Positions 25-62,821 of a stretch of 64,000 bases of DNA are shown in pieces. A program made the position numbers and the translations under genes. The notes beneath the pieces were generated by a model, which was given only the letters and a program-made list of their open reading frames with translations, made no database searches and was not told where the DNA came from. Each line of letters starts with the position of its first letter. Positions within the stretch are counted from its first letter, which is position 1. This DNA comes from Thelephora terrestris (taxonomy: Eukaryota; Basidiomycota; Agaricomycetes; Thelephorales; Thelephoraceae), in NCBI GenBank assembly GCA_015956445.1, contig WIUZ02000013.1, positions 496,001 through 560,000 on the forward strand, written 5' to 3'.

Positions 25-1258
25 TGTCAGGGCCACTCTACCCCAACAACTACCAGTGCACTGAGCCGACTCCGCAGAGTACTCACTAGTCCAACTAGCT
101 TGTGAGAGAACGATCACGTCTCTATTCTTCTGGTAGGTTGTCCGAGGTCACTGCAAGTCAGGTCGAAATCCTAAAGAGAAACCCAACCTAAACCGTACTT
201 CGTTCGGTTTAACACACAAGGGTTTATCTCTACAACAGGATTGATGACTCCACCAGTTGATCGACTGGACGCTCGAGGTGTTCTAATATGAACGCGGGGG
301 GGGTTCTATAGTTACGAGGCACAGTTGACGCGCAGAGCGGGAGGGAGAGCAGATGGGGATGTCTTGAATCAAACAAGAAACTCTGACTTGGCCTTAACTG
401 CAACTGGGCTGAGAAGGGCAGAGGATTTCCTGAGGTAACAAAACTAAGGTACTACGATACAGCCACAGTTGCTACTTATACTAAAGGAGTGGCCATGATG
501 TCAATACCCTAATATACCCTTATCAAGCCAGAACAAAGGGAAATAAGGAGTGTGAGAACGCTAAGTAAGGGAAGCGAACAACGGTGACGCGTGAGAGAAT
601 AAAGGACAAAGGGCCTTACTAGCGTGTGAAAGATTGCATAAAAGATAACGAATGTCTGCATGAAACATAGGGGTAAAGATAACACTAGTCCTAAAAGAAA
701 TAGGGGCATGGGTCATGAAAGTTCGTACCTGGATCTAGACCACACCCAAGGGTCAGGTGAGCACCGTCTCGTGGCTTCTGCGATTGGCCAGAGATAACGA
801 AGAACTCTACACATCCCTTGTTGTCGGTAGGTGGTATGATACCAATGGACAGGCAGTAACCTGGGAGTTGCAGCCGTAATCACTTGATCAGACCCAGTCT
901 TGATTAGGCATAGCACCTGGGAATATCGTTCTTCCTAAGTGGCACCAGGGATTATATTCTTCGGCCGCCGTTCTCGGCTCGGGCCTACTCTGCTTCCAAA
1001 GCACAACTAGATCAGATAGGGTTACTATCTGATTAGAAGCACAGTGTCCAAATGTTGATACCCCATGCCCACGTGTGTGTTCCAGGGTCCAGGGTTGATC
1101 ATAATTGTAAAGTCATGAGGGGTCGTAAAAAGGGGTTCGTGATGTCATGAAGGGGTCATCAGGGTCTTGAGACCTATTTTTAGTGCACGCGCGTTCTAGG
1201 CGTTCCGGAACGAAGTTCTTCCAAGGCCGTCCCGCGGGCCGAGGTGTCAGCTTGATGT
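25..1258. other. Left non-coding arm of unit E1
   Basis: No open frame here looks like a protein. The only notable part is a 20-bp word at 811-830 that recurs exactly at 9072-9091 in unit E3, preceded in both places by CCAAGGGTCAG some 55-65 bp upstream. It may be a shared functional site or a remnant of a third repeat. Confidence 0.5.
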
Positions 1259-1278
1259 TGTCAGGGTTGTAGGCCTGC

Positions 1279-1902
1279 TTACTGTTTGTGGGGCGCTAGA
1301 GGATTAGCAGCGGGGTGAGGGGTGTCGGGTCTGACTTTGAAGGGAGTTCCGGGTGTAGAGACGAGGGGAGGTGGGATATCAAGAGAGAGAGGTGACTCGG
1401 TTTGATAGGGGTGTACGGGTGAGTGGTAGTCTTGGCAGAACTGGCTGAGTTGCTGCACAAAGGGTTCAAAGTCTTGGTCGCTAAGGCGTTCGAAATTGAC
1501 GAGATATTCTATAACCGAATAAGGTAATTCAGTAGGGACTTCCCACCAAAGAATGATGATAGCAGGAGAATGGGTATGGATGTTAGTGGTGAGGTGAACA
1601 CGTGGGGAGGGGAAGTAGAAGGCTGGGCTGATACTGAAGTAGACGGTCGCGAGGACACTCTCAGTAAGATCTGAATTCCAAAGGAATTGGTGATCTGCCC
1701 CTAGGAGAAAGGGAGGAGTGGTGACTCCGGCGTCGAGTGCTGCAAAGGGTCGGTAGTAAGGGAAATGGGTGAGTAAACCGGCGGTTCGGTTTACTTGAAG
1801 ACTTCTGATGAGTTTATACTCCCAGATAGATCTCCTAGCGTCAGGAATAACCGGGCGCTGAACTGGACTTGTAGAGGGGAAGGGATTTGGAGCACTGAAC
1901 AT
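1279..1902 (-). CDS. Gene X of unit E2, unknown protein
   Basis: This reads as one exon of 207 residues beginning MFSAPNPFPS. The copy in E4 has exactly the same length, start and stop, with conservative differences, which supports real coding. I recognise no domain. Visible features are a basic/aromatic N-terminal part (RRSIWEYKLIRSLQVNR), a middle with aromatic and small residues (FLWNSDLTESVLATVYFS), an acidic/aromatic segment (ELPYSVIEYLVNFERLSDQ) and a proline-rich tail. There is no signal peptide or clear membrane helix. A TATATAA box lies upstream in both copies, followed by a GTAAGC...AG pair that could be a 5' leader intron ending just before the ATG. It is divergent from Y and shares its promoter region. 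Function is unknown. Confidence 0.6.
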   Translation of the reverse strand: MFSAPNPFPSTSPVQRPVIPDARRSIWEYKLIRSLQVNRTAGLLTHFPYYRPFAALDAGVTTPPFLLGADHQFLWNSDLTESVLATVYFSISPAFYFPSPRVHLTTNIHTHSPAIIILWWEVPTELPYSVIEYLVNFERLSDQDFEPFVQQLSQFCQDYHSPVHPYQTESPLSLDIPPPLVSTPGTPFKVRPDTPHPAANPLAPHKQ

Positions 1903-2220
1903 ACACTAGCAGGAGGATTCCTGCTGAAATGAGTTTAGAAGGGGGTAAGACGTGAGAAGAATTCCTCAGCTTACTTTTATTCAGGTTGTGGTTAGAGGAG
2001 TACAGAAGAGATTGAGAATGGGGAAAGAAAGGAGCGAACGCTCTTCCTTATATACCCAATCCTCTACAGGAGTCATTATTCTACAACGAGTCAAACAGGA
2101 ATCAACATGGTCTGTGCGTAATTTAGGGCAGGGTGGATGAGTCGGAGGAGTGGAACTTCGGAACGACCAATAACGAAATGAAATAGGGGAACAATAGTAA
2201 AGGAGTTATTAGAAGCATAA

Positions 2221-2350
2221 TGGGGATTTCTCATGATTGATGGCGGTAATAGAAGACTGATGGGGATTTCTCATGATCGGTGGGGATTTCTCTCGTTTCA
2301 CGGTAGTAGTAGAAGGCGGATGGGGATTTCCCATGATCGATGGGGATTTC
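2221..2350 (+). promoter_or_regulatory. Phased TGGGGATTTC array between X and Y
   Basis: The word TGGGGATTTC occurs at 2221, 2261, 2281, 2321 and 2341, so the spacing is 40, 20, 40, 20 bp. Most copies continue TC or CC plus ATGATCGATGG-like sequence. The same word with 40/20/40 spacing is kept in E4. A spacing of two and four helical turns would put bound proteins on one face of the DNA. This is probably a regulator-binding array for the divergent genes; the factor is unknown. Confidence 0.55.
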
Positions 2351-2553
2351 TCTGAATTGATGGGATCGCGATTGGGGTTGAGGGTTCGTTTATCCTAATG
2401 AGGGCGTTAATGGATAATGGGTTTTGTTTTTCCCTTTTTGGTTTTCCTTGAGTCAGGATGTATTTAAGTCAGGGGGATTAATGATCGTTCTCCCTCATCG
2501 TCTCTTTTCCACTCCCATCCAACACCAGTACTACTCTCCCATCCTCTGCTATC

Positions 2554-3457
2554 ATGTCTGCTTTTGCTGCCGCCAATACCGTCCTCAACACTGCCGCCAC
2601 CCCCTTCACTCCGTCCTTTGAGACGGATGCTCCCTACAACGTGGAGCAACACCTGTACGATACTCCCGCCAATATCGCCCACGACAATCAGGTCGCCGTC
2701 GACTTCCTTACCACCCATAATGCTCCTGCCGAGTTCTGGGAACAGGCCGGTTTCGAAGATCCCAGACTTTCTGGGCCTGTGGTCCGGGCTCTACACCCTG
2801 GAGCCGTTCAGTTATTGGACGTCATGGAGAGGGATAGGGAGGATAGGATTGCGAAGTTGGAGAAACGGGTGGACCTCATGTACGTCATCATGAACAGCTT
2901 GAATGATGACTTCTCTCACTTTGCTTTGGAACATTGGGGACCTTTCCAGGCATCTCTCTTCCGATATTTCGGACACCAATGTCGCGGGGCTTATTGCACC
3001 GACCCCCCTTGCAAGTCCCCAGTCGTCCCTTCGCCACCGCCAGGATCGGGGCGTTCCTCTTCCTCCATCCCCTCCCTGGAGTCCTGCCCCAGTTCGCCAG
3101 ATGGTGGAGAGGTCCCAGAAGAAGAAGACCCGCAAGAGTCCGATGACTCGTTCTGGTCAACGTTGTCGTCCCTCCGACAAGTCACGTCAGGTGAGGATGA
3201 AGTTGAAGGTGGAGGTGGCGGGTCTCCAAGACCGCTATGGGTTCGCATTAGTGAGCGAGGCCTTGTCGGATGTGCGACGAGAGATGTATGACAGTCTCTC
3301 TCATGATGTGTTGGGGTGTAGGGAGTGTTGGCAAGATCCGATGACGCGAGAGTGGTCGTATTGTCCGGAGAGTATTCACAATCCTCACCACTTTGCTCAT
3401 TGTTGTCCTCTTCCTCAGAATTGCTCATGTGATGTTGACCCGTTTGTTCTTGTCTGA
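2554..3457 (+). CDS. Gene Y of unit E2, coiled-coil plus Cys/His-rich protein
   Basis: The start MSAFAAAN is preceded by a TATTTAAG box near 2459 and a pyrimidine-rich leader. The N-terminal region (about 130 residues) is shared with the E4 copy and contains a short charged heptad-like stretch (REDRIAKLEKRVDLMYV), then CRGAYCTDPPCKSP, then a Pro/Ser/Glu-rich linker. Both copies also keep a C-terminal part rich in Cys and His (LGCRECWQD, YCPESIHNPHHFAHCC), reminiscent of a small zinc-binding fold but not one I can name. I do not resolve the exact structure between about 3190 and 3260. The gene lies in a mobile unit, divergent from X. Function is unknown. Confidence 0.5.
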
Positions 3458-3544
3458 GTTTGTAGTTCTTCTTAGCCGTTTTTGTACTATTATGACTGCG
3501 AATGAGACCAATGTCTTTGATTATTTGTGAGATCTTGGCTACTA

Positions 3545-3562
3545 TGTCACGCGTTCGTGACA
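3545..3562. repeat. Quasi-palindromic inner end of E2
   Basis: TGTCACG CGTT CGTGACA has 7-bp arms and forms the very end of the unit. The identical 18-bp sequence, inverted, is the start of E4 (10528-10545). It may be the recombinase recognition site. Confidence 0.6.
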
Positions 3563-3735
3563 GATGTAGTAAGCCAACGATGATGGTACAGGGGCAGAAG
3601 TTGATGTGACCCGGACCAATGAGGTTCGTCGAGGTAGGTCACGTGAAGGATCACCGATCTAGGCTATAAGAAGGACGTCTTCTTGGAGCCATCCTTGATC
3701 AGCAACACCAGCAACTTCCCCATCATCTTACCAAA

Positions 3736-5475
3736 ATGTCTTTCCCCAACAACCATACCTACAAAGTTGCCAACGGCATCTCTACCATCTCCCGTATTGA
3801 TCGTCGTGCCGCCGCTCGCAAGACCTACGCCTGTGCGGCGGGGACTCCCTATACCACTGATGGCCAGGTATGGGGGAGACCTAGAGCTTTGTATGTTTGC
3901 ACTAACGCCTTCCTCTAGGTAGAGGCACGTTCTTTTAGGCGTTGATGTCAAGCTAACGGCTTCTAGATCTTAGAGGTCGTCACGGAAGTGGACGCCGAAC
4001 GTCTCAGGGAGACGATCCCTCACTTGATGGGATTGACCTGGGATGACGAGCTCTGGGTCCGTACGATTATTGCCGAGAAGGTGGCCTTCCAGATGAGGGG
4101 TAGGTTCGGGGAGCTGGAGCATCCGATCAAGAAGGAGCTCTGGTATACCCTGCAGAGGGGGATCTATGATCAGGACCTGTTGGAGCATGGGGCTACCGTT
4201 CCTCGGGCCGTCCGCCATGCCACCACTTCCACTAGTCTTTTGTGGTCGCTCGTTCGGGAAGGGGAGAGCCAGGTAGGTCCTCTGTTTGAATATTCGAGTA
4301 TGACTCTCGACTAATCAAACTGCCTAGGTTGAACGACTGGAGCGGGAGGTGAAAGAGGCGAAGGCAGACGTCCTTCGTCTATCAGCGGAGGGTCTTCAGA
4401 TGAAGGAGACCTTGGCAGCCTTTCAACAGGGAACGAACGAGGCGTTGGAGGCAATGGTCGCCAACCATCAAGAGTTGATAGCCGGGTTGAAGGTTCGGGA
4501 CAACAACATCAAAGGGGCGTTGGCCAGGAGAGATGAAAAGGTAGCTTTCCTCATCTCGAAGACGAAATGAGGGCAGCTGACACTTCTTCTAGACTGAAGA
4601 ACTCGAGAACGTGGTGGCGGTGTTGACGGCGCAGGTTGAGTCCTTGCAGGACAAGACCTGCAACTGTAAAGAGGGTCCCAAATTGGTTGGTCAGGGGACA
4701 GCCGATGTTCCGTTCGAGTTGGAGTACGCCGACGAGGTGGTACTCCCTTCGCCTAACCTGTTGTCCTATGCGACACCTCCGATCGAGAACTTGGTTCCCG
4801 TTCCAACTCCGGCTCCGGCTTCTACTTTGGCCACTTCCGACAAGGAGAACTGTGGGCGCTGTGTCTTGCAGCCGATCCATCAGTTGGTGAAGATTGAGGA
4901 TGAGGTCATGGAGGTTGACCGAGCTGAAGATGTTCCGAGGGTCGCCGAGGTACGTCCGGTGACTAAGGGGCAACGATGCAAACGCTCTCGACGCCGTCCT
5001 GCTCATCGTATGACCGCATCGGCTAATCCTTACCCTCGACCAGTTGAGTCAGATGGTGACCAGTCTGGTCGAGGTGAGGAGCGAGGATTCTGATATCGGG
5101 TCCACCGTCCTTACCAACAAGTCAAGTCCGAGATCCAACTCCGACACCAGCTTCGCCTCGCAAGGCAGGATCCCACCCAGGGGTCCGATGAGGGAGACGG
5201 AGGGTCGCTCGCCGACTACGTCGATAGTGCCGTCGAGCAGTCACCCGGTGATGGAGATGTGGGACCAGGTGTTCAGCAGTTCGGTGACATCTGGGAGGCT
5301 GATCGGTCCGCTCGAAGGCATCTCTTCCTATCGGCTTGAACTAGTCGTTCAGCTGAGTGCCGAAGATGGTGACGCCATGTTCGGGGAGGTCCTTGCGAGG
5401 AGGGGCCATCACTACGATCTCCGGGATGGACAGTTGATGACCTTTAGGCCTTCCGTAGATAGAGTCGATTTCTGA
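3736..5475 (+). CDS. Gene Z of unit E1, coiled-coil protein of unknown function
   Basis: I place five exons: 3736-3867, 3967-4272, 4328-4540, 4593-4949 and 5044-5475, all joined in phase 0, giving about 479 residues. The last intron has GTACGT, a GCTAATC branch site and a CAG end. A TATA-like TATAAG lies near 3664. The protein has a basic N-terminus (RIDRRAAARK), a domain around DDELWVRTIIAEKVAFQMR, then a long coiled coil over exons 3-4 (EREVKEAKADVLRLSAEG onward), a cysteine pair and an acidic motif KIEDEVMEVDRAED. The C-terminal 140 residues are well conserved in the truncated copy at 62196-62821. The acidic motif and exon plan resemble gene W. No enzyme or DNA-binding domain is recognised. 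It could be a structural cargo protein of the unit. Confidence 0.6.
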
Positions 5476-5870
5476 TGGGACGTTGATAGCACTTTGTATA
5501 GCCTTGTAGTTCTGATTCGCTGGGAATAGTACGCGTGTGTGTGTTTTGAATGATTGGTGTGAAGGATAAGGAGTGTGAAGCATTCAAACATAAGAAATGG
5601 TAAGAAGAGTTCGAAGAAAGAGTGTGTTATAAAAAGTTTAAAAATACCATGTTCCTGACAATCTTGGGAAAGCTCACTAATTCTGGAGTAACTTGAGTTC
5701 ACCATCTGGTCCCAGAGGCTCAAATTTTCACAGACAGGAATGAGCTCATGGAGGTTTGTCCTGGGATGAATTGGGCCACCGCAACTCTTCTGTTACAGTT
5801 TGCACGTGATGATGTAGCAAATGTTGCATCGACTGGATGAACCACTGTACGATATCTTGAAGTGTGGTGT

Positions 5871-6631
5871 ACCATTAGATGATGTAATTACAATGATGAA
5901 ACCACCCTTCTGCGTTTGCACAAGTTACCAACCACACAGCCTGACTGAGATATGCATAAACATCCCCTTCATTGTTAGGGTTGTCTCTCATAGAAATAAG
6001 AATTGGATTGTTTTCTCGCTTGATGTGTGCTTTGATGGCTGAAAATGCCAGTTTGATTGGGTTGAGGTCAGGGGAGTAGGGGGGCAGAAATACCACCCAC
6101 ATTCCACTGTCAGCCATTGAATCAGTGCTGTGATGATAGAGATATAAGGATGCTGTTCTTCAATCATCTCAATGATTGTCTGATCCTTATGGATGCTGCA
6201 GTTATCCATCACGATCACAGAGTTAGGTCCAGGATAAGCGTTCATGACATAGAGGAGTCCATCAATAAATTGTGCAAATTGTGCAGCATTGAAGGACCCT
6301 TCAATGATGTCTAGGCAGAGGATTCCATCAAGGGATAGAGCAGGTAGAAGGGAATAGCTGTACATTGAGTCAGAACATATACTATAGGTCATAGCTCAGG
6401 GGATGTACCATTTACCCTGCACACAGAAAGTTCAGCATGATGCCTGTTCACCTTCTCTTGCCCACCCATAGCTTCTACTTGCCATCCGACGGTCGCATGA
6501 TGTTTCATCAACAAAGACAAGCTGCTCAGGAGTATATGCATTGATTTTCTGAATGTACCGACTCTACTTCATCTCATTGCGTTCAATTGCTGGCCGCATA
6601 ACCTCATGAAATAATGTGAGCAATTGGTTCC
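5871..6631 (-). pseudogene. Tc1/mariner-like transposase, C-terminal part
   Basis: This is the DDE half of a Tc1/IS630-type transposase (DDE_3 superfamily), a cut-and-paste enzyme of DNA transposons. Reading on the minus strand, the first catalytic Asp is in LVFVDETSCD (near 6515), the second in VIVMDNCSIHKDQ (near 6200), and the third region is PPYSPDLNPIK (near 6040), where the usual Glu after NPI is Lys. With that change and interruptions near 6410 and 6570 it must be dead. Unit E3 is inserted at 6631/6632 and separates it from its N-terminal helix-turn-helix part, found at 9901 onward. Terminal repeats of the transposon were not identified. Confidence 0.8.
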
Positions 6632-7582
6632 TGTCAGGCCGACGTGACCTCTACAGTTCAATAGCACTCTTGCTATCCAAACCTATCACACTCAGGGGTC
6701 AAACACACAGTTATAACCCTGTTGCAAACCCAAGGATATCGGAAGTCTCTTCACAGACTAGATTTGGAGGAAAGGAGAAAGAAGGAGACAAGGGTCTTCA
6801 GGCACTCTTGCTCTAAGCACACAGCAGTAGAGGTCACGAAGAGTCTGATGTATTGGTAGTTACTAGCACTTCACTATCAACAAACTTCGTGATAACCTAT
6901 TTTCTACCAATGTCCTGGTGTCGTTACTGCTTACAGTTTTAATAGTGTTATCTGTTGTTTTTGGTCTTTTTGCATGATAACGCTATCGCTTGCGGAGATA
7001 GTTACCTCAGCATCCATGCTCTACCCATCCTCCAGTGCCACAGGTCCTAAGGGGCCTGCTTTTGTACAAGACCTCCGTCTCGCACTCTTGTACCATGTCG
7101 CACTGGCCACTGCCAATGGGACTACGTACTCAGCTGTCCTAGAGGGTTCCTAGAGTCACGGAGAATCTGATGATAACAAATCTAAGGAGTACAGGCTAAA
7201 CTACTCTGAGTATATATACTACTTAGATTTGTGACGTGACAGTGACATGTAACTACACTAATGATAAAAACACAGACAAACATGGTCCGTGCACAGCACT
7301 GCATGGTCTGTGCGTTATGTGGTGACTAATGCTACAAATCATCAGCTGATAAACGAAAGTGTGGCGGCCAATAGCAATTTGAGAGCATTACAAAGCAGTT
7401 ACAAAGCATGACGTATCCTGTGAATGTTCGGAAGGAATGTGGGTATGGCTGACTAACAGCCAATGGCAAAAGGGGAGCATATGACTAAGAAATAGGGGCA
7501 TATGATGTCATGTGGGTCATGCGCAGTAAACAATAGAAATGATGACTCAACTCCTGAGTCGTGGAAGGGGCGTGGCATTTGG

Positions 7583-7589
7583 TATATAA
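7583..7589 (+). promoter_or_regulatory. TATA box of gene W
   Basis: TATATAA lies 61 bp before the ATG of W, a spacing like that of gene X. Confidence 0.55.
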
Positions 7590-7649
7590 CCAAAGGGGGT
7601 TGGATGACTGGGTCTCTCAACAAACCTCCCTTTGTTACACACAGCCAAC

Positions 7650-8909
7650 ATGCCTCGTGCTCAAACTCATGTTCCCACCCGTCACTCTACTCCCTACTCT
7701 CCTGTTCAGGAGAACAACTTCAACATCAATCGTTTCTCCCATGCTCGTCATGATGCTTCCCGTCCTTATCCCACTTTGGGAAACGTCATGGACCACACCA
7801 ACACCGCCGACCCTAATGAGGGTTTCACCGATTTAGGTTCGGGATGCCGGTTGACATATTTGACATGTCTGCTGATGTTCCGCTTTAGGTTTCAGGGATT
7901 TTATCCAGGCTTCTCGTAGGGTGTCTCGGCGCAAGTTGGCGCGCATTGAGACGAACCCTTACGCGACCGAACTCCTTAACAGGGGTGTCGAGTTCGTCAC
8001 CGAGACCAATGAGACCTTCAACTCCGTGTTGGAGGCCAGCGTTATCCATACGGGTAACATTGGGTCTATGTTGATGGACGAGATAGCTCATGTCAATGAG
8101 CGAGTTGATGGTCGTCGCGAAGAGATTGAGAAGCTGGAGAAGGAGTTTCTTGGATGTCACAAGGGGATGTTGAAGATTGAAGATGAGCAAGAGCAGCATG
8201 GTATGGCGATCGACAGGTTAAAGGTAAATGTGGGGTCGGGAGATATTGGACATCTCTAACCTAACATTTCCTTTAGGGAGAAGTGATCACCTTGAAGGAC
8301 TTGGTCCGGAGTCTCGTTGCGAAGACCGGAGAATCGGAAGACGATAAGGTACTGGGGCTGGGATCAAAGATAATTGACATCTTCTAACCCTGTTCCTTTT
8401 AGGTCCGCCTTACTCGTCGTGTCTCCGAGTTGACCGGAGAAGTCCGGGATCTCCAGAGAAGATGCAACGAACCGGAGGTCCGTGTTGAGGAGGAAGAGTT
8501 GGAGGTTCCGTATCGGGCTGGTTCGCCGATAGTCCCTAATCAGGCTGAGTCGCCGCCCGCTCGTTTGTTGGTCCGTCATGAGAACAGGTTGGTCCCTGTT
8601 GATGATGAGGTCATTGAGATTGGGAGCGACGAATTCTACCAGAATGTGGGAGTTGTCCGTAGGGACACTCCTCATCCTGAATTCATGTCTACTCCTTGGG
8701 GTAGTCGTCGTCAATGGCCTGCCCTGGAGTATGACCCGTACGCCGAGTTCGTTCCCGATAGTGAACCAAACTCTGATACGGAGCTTCCAGATTACGATGA
8801 CTTGTCGAACGTGGACCCAAACGAGATTAGGGAGCAGAATTGGTTGAATGAGGAGTTGGTGAGATCGGCTTTGGAAGTGGTACAAAGGATTCGCAGAGAT
8901 ATTGATTAA
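7650..8909 (+). CDS. Gene W of unit E3, coiled-coil protein of unknown function
   Basis: I place four exons: 7650-7836, 7889-8223, 8277-8348 and 8403-8909, which keep one frame and give about 366 residues. The first donor (GTTCGG) is weak; the later ones (GTAAAT, GTACTG) and their TTTAG ends are good. The protein starts MPRAQTHVPT with a Ser/His/Pro-rich head, then a basic stretch (ASRRVSRRKLARIE), a helical region and a coiled coil (REEIEKLEKEFLG, then TRRVSELTGEVRDLQRRC), and an acidic C-terminus rich in Asp, Glu and Pro. The motif VPVDDEVIEIGSDE resembles KIEDEVMEVDRAED of gene Z, and the order basic head, coiled coil, acidic tail is the same, so W and Z are probably distant relatives. The hydrophobic-acidic motif resembles a SUMO-interacting motif, which is only a guess. 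Confidence 0.65.
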
Positions 8910-9312
8910 ATAACTCTTTTGTACTATTTGGCTTCCAATTTATCTTCTCTCTTGTCTATTGCGTGTGATCCATGAGGTGTAAAGCATAATGGTTTTCATA
9001 AGACCAATCCAAGGGTCAGATTAATAAGCTGATTGACTTCTGCGAGAGGTCAGCGCGCGACGCTTATTAATACATCCCTTGTTGTCGGTAGTCTGAATAT
9101 CTACTAGTCGTCCAGGGGCAACGGAGGGCCAGGTAGGGGGGATCTTCGTATGAAGGTCCGCCAGTACATGTTCACGTATTATACCTCGGGTCTTCTGGGG
9201 TATCTTGACTAGTAGCACGTTCCACGTATTGGACTTTGAGTCGTTAAGCATAGGGCATACTGCATAATAAACAGTTTACCGCCGTGTTTAGGGCAAGGCA
9301 CCAACTGACTTA

Positions 9313-9839
9313 CACTGGGGGCAAGGGCCCAAATACCCACCAGGTACATTGTGATTACATTGCGGTTACAGTCAACAAGTGATCCCAATGTGCCTGGTGG
9401 GTAAAAATCAGGTACGTTCAAAATGTGCCCAAAAATGTGAATTTAATATTACCGCTGGGCAAATACTGATCGCATTTACAATGTACCCAGTCATGTGACC
9501 ATAATGCACCAAAACGCATGTCCTAGGCATATTTTGAATACATTCGATTCACATTGTAAAATCGACGACATTCAAAATGTGTTCACAATGTACCCCACCA
9601 ATTCCTCCACATGTTGAATACATTGTGAATGTGATCATCGATCACATTCAAAACACTTTTTAGAGCAATTTTTGAATGCGATCTACATGTTTGGTGATGG
9701 CAAAATTTGATTCACATGATGGAGTACATTCAAAATGTGTTCACAATGTACCCACTGGGCACATTGGAGTCACTTTTTGACTGTGACCACAATGTAATCA
9801 CAATGTGCCCGATGGGTATTTGGGCCCTTGCCCCCAGTG
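9313..9839. mobile_element. CACTG foldback element 1
   Basis: Both ends read CACTGGGGGCAAGGGCCCAA inward, with a 3-bp duplication TTA (9310-9312 and 9840-9842). The interior is rich in words like ACAATGT and ACATTC in both orientations, so it can fold back on itself. No protein is encoded. CACTR ends with 3-bp duplications fit the EnSpm/CACTA (CMC) group of DNA transposons. It is inserted in the right arm of E3. Confidence 0.8.
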
Positions 9840-9900
9840 TTAGTGGTGATGAGTCGTTAAATAAAGGAAATAAAAGGGGGTAAACGGCAAAATCATCACA

Positions 9901-10090
9901 GTTCCCTATCAAACACAGAGATTGGTATCAACCTTCTTCATACTATAACCCAAACGTCGAAGTGACCACCAGATCCCAGAGAGGGACATCCCTAATCTAT
10001 ATTCTCTAACAGTTTGCGTTGTGTTTCATCCAGGAAAATATCACATCCATTGTGAACAAGCCCTAGGATGAACTATGATAGGGTTTTAGT
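9901..10090 (-). pseudogene. Tc1-like transposase, N-terminal remnant
   Basis: On the minus strand this reads peptides such as GCDIFLDETQRKLLENI and LRRLGYSMKKVDTN, which match the helix-turn-helix region of basidiomycete Tc1-like transposases (usual pattern TLRRLGYTMKK). Together with 5871-6631 it is one transposase gene split by E3. The outer limit near 10090 is approximate. Confidence 0.55.
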
Positions 10091-10527
10091 CAGCATAGCA
10101 CAAAAGACAAGTGCGCAAATCAACAAGCCTCGAAATCAGATAACAGTAGTTTTCGTGAGCAGCCACGTGTCTCCACCTCATGTCTTGTAACAACCCTACC
10201 AGTCCCGTCATATCGGCCTAGTATTCAGTAGACTTGGTGGACTGAGACCATGGTATAATCTGAGATCTCGCTGAACTAGGGGATCTTCTGATGAAGCTCT
10301 GTGGTGGCAGAGGATCAAGGCCCAGAGAGTTCCTGTGAAGGTGGGTCCTAGGTTGTACAGTGTCAAGGAACTCCAAGCGGCGACTGGGGAACAGTTGCGA
10401 AGAAAGCGCAAAGGTGGAGAGACCAGAAGAGAGCTAGAGACAAAGCAAGAAGAACAGAGAGATCACAAGAGTTCCGAGAGTTCCGAGAGTTCCAAAGGGG
10501 AGATTCGACGAGGGAAGCGGAGAACAC
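10091..10527. other. GA-rich stretch before E4
   Basis: The stretch is purine-rich with a short direct repeat of GTTCCGAGA near 10469-10495. A long plus frame runs through it into E4 but is low-complexity, and I do not call a gene. Confidence 0.4.
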
Positions 10528-10632
10528 TGTCACGAACGCGTGACATAGTAACTAAAATCACACAAGTCATTCAAGACATTGGCCTTATTCGCAGTAGTAA
10601 AAGTACAAAGACGGCTAAACAATATTACAAGG

Positions 10633-11527
10633 CTAAACAAGAACAAATGGATCTACGTCGCAAGTACAGTCCTGAGGATATGGACAACGATGAGCAAAAT
10701 GATGAGGGTTATGAACACTCTGAGGGCAATACAAATACACCCGAGTTACCAGGTCTTGCCAACATTCCCTACATCCCAACACATCATGGAACAGGCTATC
10801 ATGCATCTCTCGTTTCACGTCCGTCAACGCCTCGCTCACCAATGCGAACCCATAGCGGTCCTGGAGACCCGCTATCTCCACCTTCAACTTCATTCAAACC
10901 TGCCGTGACTTGTCGGAGGAACGACAACGTTGACCAGAACGAGTCATCGGATTCTTGCGATTCTTCTTCCTCTGGGACCTCTCCACCATCTGAAAAACTG
11001 GGGCAGGACTCCAGGGAGGGGATGGAGGGAGAGGAACGCCCTGATCCTGGTGGTGGCGAAGGGATGACTGGGGACTTGCAAGGGGGGTCAGTGCAATAAG
11101 CCCCTCGACATTGGTGTCCAAAATATCGGAAGAGAGACACCTGGAAAGGGCCCCAATGTTCCAAAGCAAAGTGAGAGAAGTCATCATTTAAACTGTTCAC
11201 AATGACGTACATGAGATCCACATGTTTCTCCAGCTTCGTAATCCTATCCTCCCTCTCCCTCTCCATAGCATCCAACAGAGGGGAAACACCAGGGGCGCGC
11301 ATAACCGTTCGGTTAGGGTCTTCATACCTGGCCTGGTCCCAGAATTGAGGAGGGGCATGGTGAGCGGTAAGGAAGTCAATGGCGACCCGGTTATCATGAG
11401 CAATGTTGGCGGGGGAGTTGTAGAGGTGCTGTTCAACCTCATAAGGACGGTCGGTCTCAAAGGACGGAGAGAAGTCGAAGGGGACCGCGTTAGCGTTGAG
11501 GGCGGTAGCGTGAGCGGTGGAAGACAT
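10633..11527 (-). CDS. Gene Y of unit E4
   Basis: This is the paralogue of the Y gene in E2, starting MSSTAHATALNANAVPF. Shared blocks include YEVEQHLYNSPANIAHDN, REDRITKLEKHVDLMYV, CRGAYCTDPPCKSP and, near the C-terminus, LGCRECWQD and NPHHFAHRCPYPQDCTC. Differences between the copies are mostly conservative. As in E2, the join between the linker and the Cys/His-rich end is unresolved. An opposite-strand frame that is open through the same region is probably a shadow of the Pro/Ser-rich linker. Confidence 0.5.
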
Positions 11528-11743
11528 AGTATGGGAAGGTTGTGTATGAGAGGGAAGGGTTGTTAAGTATTGATGAGGGTGGAAAAGAGGCGATGGAGAG
11601 AAAAGACCAATAATCCCCCTGGATTATATACGTCCAAGTCAATAGGACGACCAAAAAGGGGAAACAATAAAGCCATCACTCATTAAAGTCCCAATTAGGG
11701 TAAACGAACCCTCAGCCCCAATCGCGATCCCATCAAAACCCAA

Positions 11744-12143
11744 GAAATCCCCACCACACTTCTATTACTACCTTCCATCACTGGGTCCAGGGTAGAATAG
11801 GTTTTTGAGGATTATTCTAAACAATATTCTGAATATAATTAAAATAATAGATGTGTTATTTTTTAAACAGATTCTGCCCACATCCAAGGAATATCCAAAT
11901 GCGAATAAACTCTCAGCAGTGTTGGCTCTGGGCATTGGATTTGAATAAAATAATCTTGGGATATGGCAAGAATATGTTTAAAATAAGAAATGTTTATCAT
12001 TCTAATTATATTCAGAATATTATTCAAAATAATCCCCAAAAACCTATTCTACCCTGGACCCAGTGCATCCAGAGAAATCCCCACCGATCAGGGGAAATCC
12101 CCGTCATGCTTCTACTACTACCATGAAACACGAGAAATCCCCT
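11744..12143 (-). promoter_or_regulatory. TGGGGATTTC array in E4
   Basis: On the minus strand the word GGGGATTTC occurs with its edges at 11744, 12074, 12094 and 12134. After subtracting the inserted CACTG element and its duplication (290 bp), the spacings are 40, 20 and 40 bp, as in E2. Confidence 0.55.
11779..12065. mobile_element. CACTG element 2 (short inverted-repeat element)
   Basis: This 287-bp element has ends CACTGGGTCCAGGGTAGAAT inverted over about 60 bp and a 3-bp duplication CAT (11776-11778 and 12066-12068). The centre is AT-rich and non-coding. It has the same terminal CACTGGG and duplication length as the larger foldback elements but a different body. It lies in the regulatory array of E4 and adds 290 bp between two sites. 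Confidence 0.8.
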
Positions 12144-12310
12144 AAATACTTCCATCGACTCGTGCTTTTATTGTTCCCGCATTAGTAATTACTATCGACC
12201 GTCCTAAGTCCTTCCTTTCTGACTCATTTGACCTACCCTAAAGTACGCACAGACCATGTGGATCCCTGTTTGGTTCGCTGTAACAATAATGACTCCTGTA
12301 GAGGATTGGG

Positions 12311-12317
12311 TATATAA
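12311..12317 (+). promoter_or_regulatory. TATA box of gene X in E4
   Basis: TATATAA is conserved in the E2 copy. The ATG at 12465 follows about 150 bp later, leaving room for a leader intron from the GTAAGC near 12395 to the CAG just before TGTATG. Confidence 0.5.
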
Positions 12318-12464
12318 GGAAGAGCGTTTGCTCCTTTCTTTTCCCCATTCTCAATCTCTTCTGTACTCCTCTACCTACAACCTGAATAAAAGTAAGCTGA
12401 AGAATCCTCTTTGTGTCTTACTCCTTCTGACTCATTCAAAAGCAGGAATCCTCCTGCCCAGTGT

Positions 12465-13088
12465 ATGTTCAGTGCCCCCAATCTGTTCCCCTCTACTAGT
12501 CCTATTCAACGACCAAGTGTTCCCGACGCTAGGAGATCTATCTGGGAGTATAAACTCATTAGAAGTCTCCAAGTAAACCGAACAGCCGGTTTACTTACTC
12601 ATTTCCCCTATTATTGTCCATTCGCTGCCCTCAACGCCGGAGTTACCACTCCCCCTTTTCTTCTAGGGGCGGATCATCAGTTCCTTTGGAACTCGGACTT
12701 CACTGAAAGTGTCCTTGCGACCGTATACTTCAGTATAAGCCCCGCCTTCTATTTTCCCTCTCCTCAGATTCATCTTACTACCAACGTTCACACACACTCT
12801 CCTGCCATTATCGTTCTCTGGTGGGAAATTCCAACTGAATTACCTTATTCGGTTATAGAATACCTCATCAATTTCGAGCAACTTAGTCATCAAGACTTTG
12901 AACCGTTTGTGCAACAACTAAGTCAATTCTGCCAAGACTATCACTCGTCCGTCTACCCTTATCAAACCGAGCCCCCACTCGCTCTTGATATTCCCCCCAT
13001 CCTCACTCCCACACCCGGAACCCCCGTTCGAATTCGACCCGATACCCCTCATCCCACCACTAATCCTCTAGCGCCCCACAAACAGTAA
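12465..13088 (+). CDS. Gene X of unit E4, unknown protein
   Basis: It encodes 207 residues beginning MFSAPNLFPS, exactly the length of the E2 copy. Strongly shared blocks are RRSIWEYKLIRSLQVNRTAG, LLGADHQFLWNSDFTESVL and IPTELPYSVIEYL. The frame stays open upstream of this Met, but similarity to the other copy and the likely leader intron favour this start. The stop is followed after 20 bp by the end of the unit, so the gene fills the unit to its edge. Function is unknown. Confidence 0.62.
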   Translation: MFSAPNLFPSTSPIQRPSVPDARRSIWEYKLIRSLQVNRTAGLLTHFPYYCPFAALNAGVTTPPFLLGADHQFLWNSDFTESVLATVYFSISPAFYFPSPQIHLTTNVHTHSPAIIVLWWEIPTELPYSVIEYLINFEQLSHQDFEPFVQQLSQFCQDYHSSVYPYQTEPPLALDIPPILTPTPGTPVRIRPDTPHPTTNPLAPHKQ

Positions 13089-13108
13089 GCAGGCCTTCAA
13101 CCCTGACA

Positions 13109-61322: not shown

Positions 61323-62023
61323 TTAATTGTCTTCGGGGTCGTCTGCCTCAGCTACATCTAGTCCCATTTTTTCTATCATAAAATACTGGTCGCCATGTCC
61401 GTCGATTGAGAAGGGGAACGGAACCATCGCAACCACTGAGAGGATCGATTTAACCCCAATGACAACTAACGACCTCTCCCCACGATACCTACAAACGGCA
61501 AGAGTGGTATTAGTGTACTTAAGAAGATATTCATTTGGAGGGGAGTAGAGCGACACGAGTGCAAACGCCCGCGACTCGTTTCCAATCATCTTGACAAAGT
61601 AGAATTTGATTTCGCCAAAGTGAATGACGTCCTGACATAATATCTGCAGGACCTTTAGACATAACGTACAATTTTGAATTTAATCAAGTCGCGTACCTTG
61701 ACATTTCGATCCATCCGGGACATATCTGAGCATCGCTCACTTTCCTTCCACCGAGATCTGCCAATCTGCTTCGTGGGAAGCTTGAGACGTCCCCACCGCT
61801 GGGCAGTATGTCGGTCAACATCTTCAGCACCTGGGTAGCCGGAGAAGAACACTTTGAACACCTGTTGTTCATCGGGAGGGAGGCGATACGGAGAAGTGTC
61901 CTTAGGTCTGAGTAACAGATAGTCGTCGCCTAGATCTTTAGATCCACGAGGGTCGCCGGTTTGTTTTTGTAAATCGGGCCACATAGCGATAAGCGCGTTG
62001 GTGTGCGCAACTGTCAGGAACAT
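61323..62023 (-). CDS. Gene U, small two-exon protein, start supplied by unit E5
   Basis: Two exons, 62023-61698 or 61697 and 61643-61323, joined over a 53-bp intron (GTACGC...TGCAG), give about 215 residues. Visible blocks are IAMWPDLQKQTGD, PPDEQQVFKVFFSGYPGA, ILCQDVIHFGEIKFYFVK, RAFALVSLYSPPNEYLLKYT and YRGERSLVVIGVKSILSVVA. The second exon resembles a domain I have seen in agaricomycete proteins near DNA transposons, but I cannot name it. The first four codons (ATG TTC CTG ACA) are the end of mobile unit E5, so the gene was probably longer and lost its original 5' end to the insertion. No TATA box is obvious. Confidence 0.5.
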
Positions 62024-62821
62024 GGTATTTTTAAACTTTTTATAACACGCTCTTTCTTCGAACTCTTCTTACCACTTCTTATGTTTTGAATGCTTCACAC
62101 TCCTTATCCTTCACACCAATCATTCGAAACACACACACGCGCGTACTATTCCCAGCAAATCCACAACGAGCTATACAAGTGCTATCCCCATCCCATCAAA
62201 AGTCGACTCTATCTACGGCAGGCCTGAAGGTCAACAACTGTCCATCCCGGAGATCGTAGTGCTGGCCCCTCCTCGCAAGGACCTCTCCGAACATGGCATC
62301 ACCATCTTCGGCACTCAGCTGAACGACTAGTTCAAGCCGATAGGAAGAGATACCTTCGAGCGGACCGATCAGCCTCCCAGATGTCGCCGAACTTTGGAAC
62401 ACCTGGTCCCACATCTCCATCACCGGGTGACTGCTCGACAGTACTATCGACGTAGTCGGCAAGCGACCCTCCGTCTCCCTCATCGGACCCCTGGGCGGAA
62501 TCCTGTCTTGCGAGTCGTAGCTGGTGGCGAAGCTGGATCTCCGACTCGACCTGTCGGTAGGGACGGTTGACTCGATAGCGGAACTCTCGTCCCCCACCTC
62601 GACCAGAGAGGTCACCATCCGACTCAACTGGTCGAGGGTAAGGATTAGCCGACGCGGTCATACGATGAGCAGGACGGCGTCGAGAGCGTTTGCAACGTTG
62701 CCCCTTAGTCACCGGACATACCTCGGCGACCCTCGGAGCATCTTCGGCTCGGTCCACCTCCATGACCTCATCCTCGATCTTCACCAACTGATGGATCGGC
62801 TGCAAGACGCAGCGCCCACAG
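62012..62821 (-). mobile_element. E5: truncated unit of the E1 family with part of gene Z
   Basis: The end TGTCAGGAACATGG at 62012 is the reverse complement of the right end of E1, and similarity to E1 then runs without large gaps up to 62821, within exon 4 of Z, where it stops abruptly. It therefore holds the 3' half of a Z gene (coding up to 62196) and the right end only. It is broken; its other end is not in the window. Confidence 0.75.

Follow-up and report, generated by a model that had tools for sequence, protein, structure and literature searches.

The stretch of DNA analyzed here, referred to as the window, comprises 64,000 nucleotides of the genome (40.6 Mb, 60 contigs; C5:496001-560000) of Thelephora terrestris, a root-symbiont basidiomycete, and carries four TG...CA units, each flanked by a perfect 5-bp target-site duplication (TSD) and harboring gene Z, gene W, or the gene pair X and Y (Table 1). 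All four units, proposed in the original prediction, are real, and the accompanying claim that they lack an integrase was borne out in that no integrase or transposase domain was found in the unit open reading frames (ORFs) scanned. Overall, the units appear to be terminal repeats left behind by Ty3/gypsy retrotransposons, and these repeats carry conserved genes, at least one of them in antisense to the element. The Z unit is a solo long terminal repeat (LTR) of such an element.

Table 1. Features of the window (window coordinates).
Feature	Position	Strand	Details
Z unit, solo LTR of Ty3/gypsy chromodomain element	25..5660		TSD ATCTT, 20-24/5661-5665
Z gene, coiled-coil protein	3736..5339	+	modelled exons 3736-3867, 3967-4272, 4328-4540, 4593-5339
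XY1 unit, LTR-like, nested in Z	1259..3562		TSD GATGT
X gene, 207 amino acids	1279..1902	-	uninterrupted ORF
Y gene	2554..3457	+	overlapping open frames 2554-3291 and 2903-3457
W unit, LTR-like	6632..9900		TSD GTTCC
W gene, 366 amino acids	7650..8909	+	modelled exons 7650-7836, 7889-8223, 8277-8348, 8403-8909
XY2 unit, reverse orientation	10528..13108		TSD AACAC
Y of XY2, first frame	10799..11527	-	
X of XY2	12465..13088	+	
Insertion in W, like a miniature inverted-repeat transposable element (MITE)	9308..9845		96-bp inverted ends, 88.5%
Tc1/mariner-like transposase remnant, between Z and W	5988-6392	-	ORF matches DDE_3, E 6e-9
Terminal fragment of a further Z LTR	62012..62821	-	

Once the nested XY1 is removed, the Z unit is ~3.3 kb long, and its first 100 bases have at least 40 genomic matches at 100% identity (40 of 413 candidates scored). 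Six same-orientation Z pairs spaced 8-13 kb apart were fetched for inspection. Eight of the ten Z units readable at both ends each have a perfect 5-bp duplication to themselves and are solos; the remaining two, C1:546891 and C1:556209, make up a pair and have the duplication GATTA only on the outside. The two copies of this pair are identical at all but 2 of 3301 positions and enclose, on the strand opposite to the Z gene, a 484-amino-acid gag with a zinc knuckle and a 1272-amino-acid pol comprising protease, reverse transcriptase, RNase H, integrase, and chromodomain. The C1 pair is the kind of copy pair bracketing reverse transcriptase and integrase that the original prediction had suggested looking for, and through it the proposal of very long, protein-encoding solo LTRs is established for Z. 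The C1 LTR also represents the empty site for XY1, the overlap being just the 5-bp duplication. Z LTRs other than those at C1 are likewise joined to internal sequence, the junction motif CCTGACA-N-ACCAGCCGGTACC being present ten times, eight times with Z LTRs and twice with a second LTR type. With 36 of 161 candidates scored, at least eight pol copies at 98-100% identity and at least three at 63% were found, and each group includes one copy with a stop.

The second family, located outside the window, also consists of protein-coding LTRs in pairs, which enclose a pol that includes both reverse transcriptase and integrase. In each family, one element shows a near-identical LTR pair with a single outer target duplication, gag followed by pol in the domain order protease-reverse transcriptase-RNase H-integrase, a chromovirus-like chromodomain after the integrase, and a polypurine tract (AGGAAGAGGA and AGAAGGAGGA) three bases ahead of the LTR. 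The LTR DNA of the second family no longer matches that of Z, yet it harbors a Z homologue at the same position with the same three introns. The Z gene lies on the + strand and gag-pol of its family would read on the - strand, so that a conserved gene is antisense to gag-pol and located inside the LTR, not between pol and the 3' LTR. Both the antisense orientation and the homologous gene kept at the same place by a second family go beyond what had been predicted.

Three further observations concern the Z unit. Two Z-type LTR-internal junctions in the same direction (C23:1032748 and C23:1042058) are 9,310 bases apart, close to the distance from one LTR to the other in the C1 element, and resemble a tandem sharing one LTR. 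Between copies, the blocks ahead of the gene at unit positions 1-150, 301-600, and 1051-1350 reach 97-99% identity and 150-base windows across the gene 76-94%; the greater likeness of the pre-gene blocks points to cis-acting sequences. In the Z protein, a helix is predicted confidently only at about residues 131-250.

Pairwise comparisons of replacement and silent substitution rates (dN/dS) were conducted with wrong-frame controls. The ratio was 0.06-0.15 for Z (nine copies, with one paired LTR as the reference), 0.02-0.07 for X (11 copies), and 0.14 and 0.19 for W; for Y, it was 0.18, 0.17, and 0.33 in the first part and 0.09 and 0.05 in the tail read in the second frame, one tail comparison being saturated. 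The window copy of Z, which has a stop within its last exon, yields a dN/dS of 0.06 when compared with a paired LTR. Of the five wrong frames, four gave 0.86-15.4 for X, Z, and W. The purifying selection spans dS values up to about 1. Judged from sequence, predicted antisense, intron-bearing genes inside retrotransposon LTRs are a real and selected feature of this genome. Among five Z LTRs with internal sequence attached (10 pairs), the mean proportion of silent differences (pS) is 0.273, against 0.336 among ten solos (45 pairs), and this similar divergence indicates many co-existing element lineages. At replacement sites the corresponding values are 0.0077 and 0.0373, a contrast that fits selection in full elements followed by decay of solos after their formation, although part of the excess in solos may reflect subfamily differences. 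That selection has lasted although many other copies of the gene are present elsewhere suggests either that the action of the protein favors the copy encoding it, or that solos are silent.

All 14 XY units elsewhere that were checked at both ends (picked as un-nested out of 30 fetched loci) are standalone with their own TSD, as are the two in the window. Within XY2, positions 11754-12070 hold an unrelated stretch of ~320 bp. At around 3100-3200, the conserved frame of Y changes from the first to the second, and the two may therefore be joined by an intron or a frameshift. The XY copies studied for X were the top matches to XY1 and hence are biased toward similar copies; among the 32 distinct copies (33 rows, one locus having been entered twice), X is intact in 27, cut by nested units in three, and affected by small lesions in two. 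Nearest-neighbor pS is 0.07-0.29 in 23 of the 33 rows, above 0.45 in four, and zero in six (two of these being the locus entered twice), and the ratio of replacement to silent differences (pN/pS) of X is 0.06-0.13 in every distance bin having differences. The XY end (window 3545-3562) reads TGTCACGCGTTCGTGACA, a 7-bp perfect inverted repeat with a second TGTCA, and 13 of the 14 copies checked agree in all of its last 15 bases. In a further Ty3 element, two copies that are nearly identical (L069/L070) form a natural filled/empty pair, with an XY unit present in just one of them. Two loci (C31:37742 and C6:235959; L025, L027) carry X genes that are identical and nested in the same way, and are perhaps a segmental or assembly duplicate.

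Four of eight W units elsewhere are standalone (the other four showed no end within the sequence fetched), as are the C2 copy and the window copy. Positions 219-520 of the W unit are missing from three other copies, and the MITE-like insertion, missing from the C2 copy, is a later insertion.

No Pfam family reached the cut-off in a scan of the X, Y, Z, and W proteins, the nearest being the coiled-coil family CENP-F_leu_zip, below the cut-off in one W protein. A protein search with X returned nine clusters down to 70% identity, one named T. terrestris and six being Joint Genome Institute (JGI) short-contig records; T. terrestris BJ322DRAFT_1105300 is a match. Proteins of Z and second type form at least 75 clusters with at least 319 member sequences among the best 8000 candidates (those with most words in common) scored, and 74 clusters are named T. 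terrestris; the other cluster, P0084, matches 6% of a Z-type query and is treated as a chance match. W proteins form 72 clusters with 171 members, all named T. terrestris and 44-94% identical.

We assign XY and W to the LTRs with less confidence than Z. All units end in CCTGACA when Y, Z, and W are set in antisense, and in this orientation W and Z are modelled with introns and the ORF of the sense gene X runs without interruption, which is what reverse transcription of the genomic RNA would lead one to expect. The assignment is weaker because no full-length partner was found using the junction motif, polypurine patterns, the 3' flanks of 11 other Ty3 pols, three copia reverse transcriptase neighborhoods, and the C3/C20 sites, a search that could miss full-length partners. 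For XY and W, the predicted protein-encoding LTRs therefore remain probable, with no copy pair around reverse transcriptase or integrase met in these searches.

Besides this lack of any full-length element with XY or W LTRs, several observations weigh against our interpretation. No transfer RNA (tRNA)-type primer site with an adjacent TGG was found directly after the LTR; a conserved motif, CCAGCCGGTACC, common to both families, starts 14 bases in. Both LTRs were checked in only two elements, C1 and one of the second family. A Z-type element at C4:73889-75136, with 100% pol identity, is ~0.9 kb shorter than the others in the interval from junction to pol and has thus probably lost some of gag. 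Similarity between the W and Z proteins was not detectable, and database models of Z do not agree on the first intron and join the last exon in a frame other than the mostly conserved one. The fifth wrong frame, on the reverse strand, is low throughout (0.07-0.32), as expected where its silent sites coincide; it always lies above the true frame and has 12-22 stop-bearing codons. Finally, Y compared with L051 gives 0.33 at a dS of 0.06 and wrong frames of 0.35-1.98, without separation.

The non-autonomous, integrase-mobilized cargo system of the original prediction is unneeded for Z; for XY and W, it would mean complete gene carriers served by a retroviral-type integrase in trans, with X, Y, and W needed for their own mobilization, which we consider unlikely. 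Consistent with it, each of the 16 XY and six W units with both ends in view stands alone, the searches above met no full-length partner, and X is mostly intact though the XY copies stem from long-separated lineages. However, Z LTRs with internal sequence are similarly diverged, making separate replication unneeded, and the unit ends agree with Z LTR polarity; moreover, if ~5% of LTRs reside in full elements (a rough figure that sets 8 junctions beside about 300 Z-type proteins), a count of zero among 16 is no surprise. Slightly more doubtful still is that XY and W constitute a new class of LTR-like units with two termini and one or two genes, themselves mobile through Ty3 integrase in trans and supplying X, Y, and W as proteins for their own mobilization, with Z being such a unit that now flanks gag-pol. 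Host genes trapped by chance in LTRs and multiplied passively could likewise lack a Pfam match at the cut-off, but such an origin is very improbable given purifying selection across dS values reaching about 1, the homologue with matching intron positions in a second element whose LTR DNA does not match, and Z and W protein matches that are all from T. terrestris bar the one weak match. Ginger-type or other cut-and-paste DNA elements share TG...CA ends and 5-bp duplications and are the least credible source of XY and W, the ORFs scanned having yielded no integrase or transposase domain; for Z, they are ruled out by the LTR pair around gag-pol.

An LTR is an unusual location for a gene, and here a strongly selected antisense gene, present in many copies and in two diverged families within a single genome, persists in solo LTRs after the element itself is gone. 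The function of such proteins becomes testable, as does whether solo LTRs still affect active copies. The protein matches suggest that many T. terrestris 'hypothetical proteins' may be LTR genes, which would bear on gene counts and orphan-gene claims.

Solo LTRs of fungal Ty3/gypsy chromodomain elements have TG...CA ends and 5-bp duplications and outnumber full elements; unlike these usual solos, the T. terrestris LTRs are 2.3-3.3 kb long and encode conserved proteins. Zhao et al. (2011) reportedly described Boty-like elements of Botrytis cinerea with an antisense gene, brtn. Among retroviruses, the sag protein of mouse mammary tumor virus (MMTV) is encoded in the LTR; to our knowledge, neither MMTV nor human T-lymphotropic virus (HTLV) has a multi-intron antisense gene contained in its LTR. 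According to PMC7264820, HTLV has an antisense promoter within the 3' LTR. The likeness to these viruses lies in LTR-based antisense transcription or in a protein encoded in the LTR. The brtn gene of Boty is cited in PMC8365987; what it has in common with the present case is an additional antisense gene in an LTR element of a fungus. The T. terrestris genome is treated in PMC7550596, on the transposable element content of mycorrhizal fungi, the accessible part of which makes no mention of LTR genes, and no report of such genes inside LTRs was met in the literature searched. Plant Ty3/gypsy elements with antisense ORFs (aORF-3R), as described in PMC7264820, include maize Grande (gene23), rice RIRE2, Silene Retand, and PvRetro13; their function is described as unknown, with nuclear or regulatory roles suggested. 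Like these ORFs, Z is antisense to gag-pol, conserved, and without clear homologues, and the match of PvRetro13 ORF2 to structural maintenance of chromosomes (SMC)-type proteins, given in the same review, recalls the predicted coiled-coil proteins of Z and W. The plant and Boty ORFs, according to this review, sit between pol and the 3' LTR, whereas the Z gene, modelled with three introns, lies inside the LTR and is therefore doubled in the full element and kept in solo LTRs.
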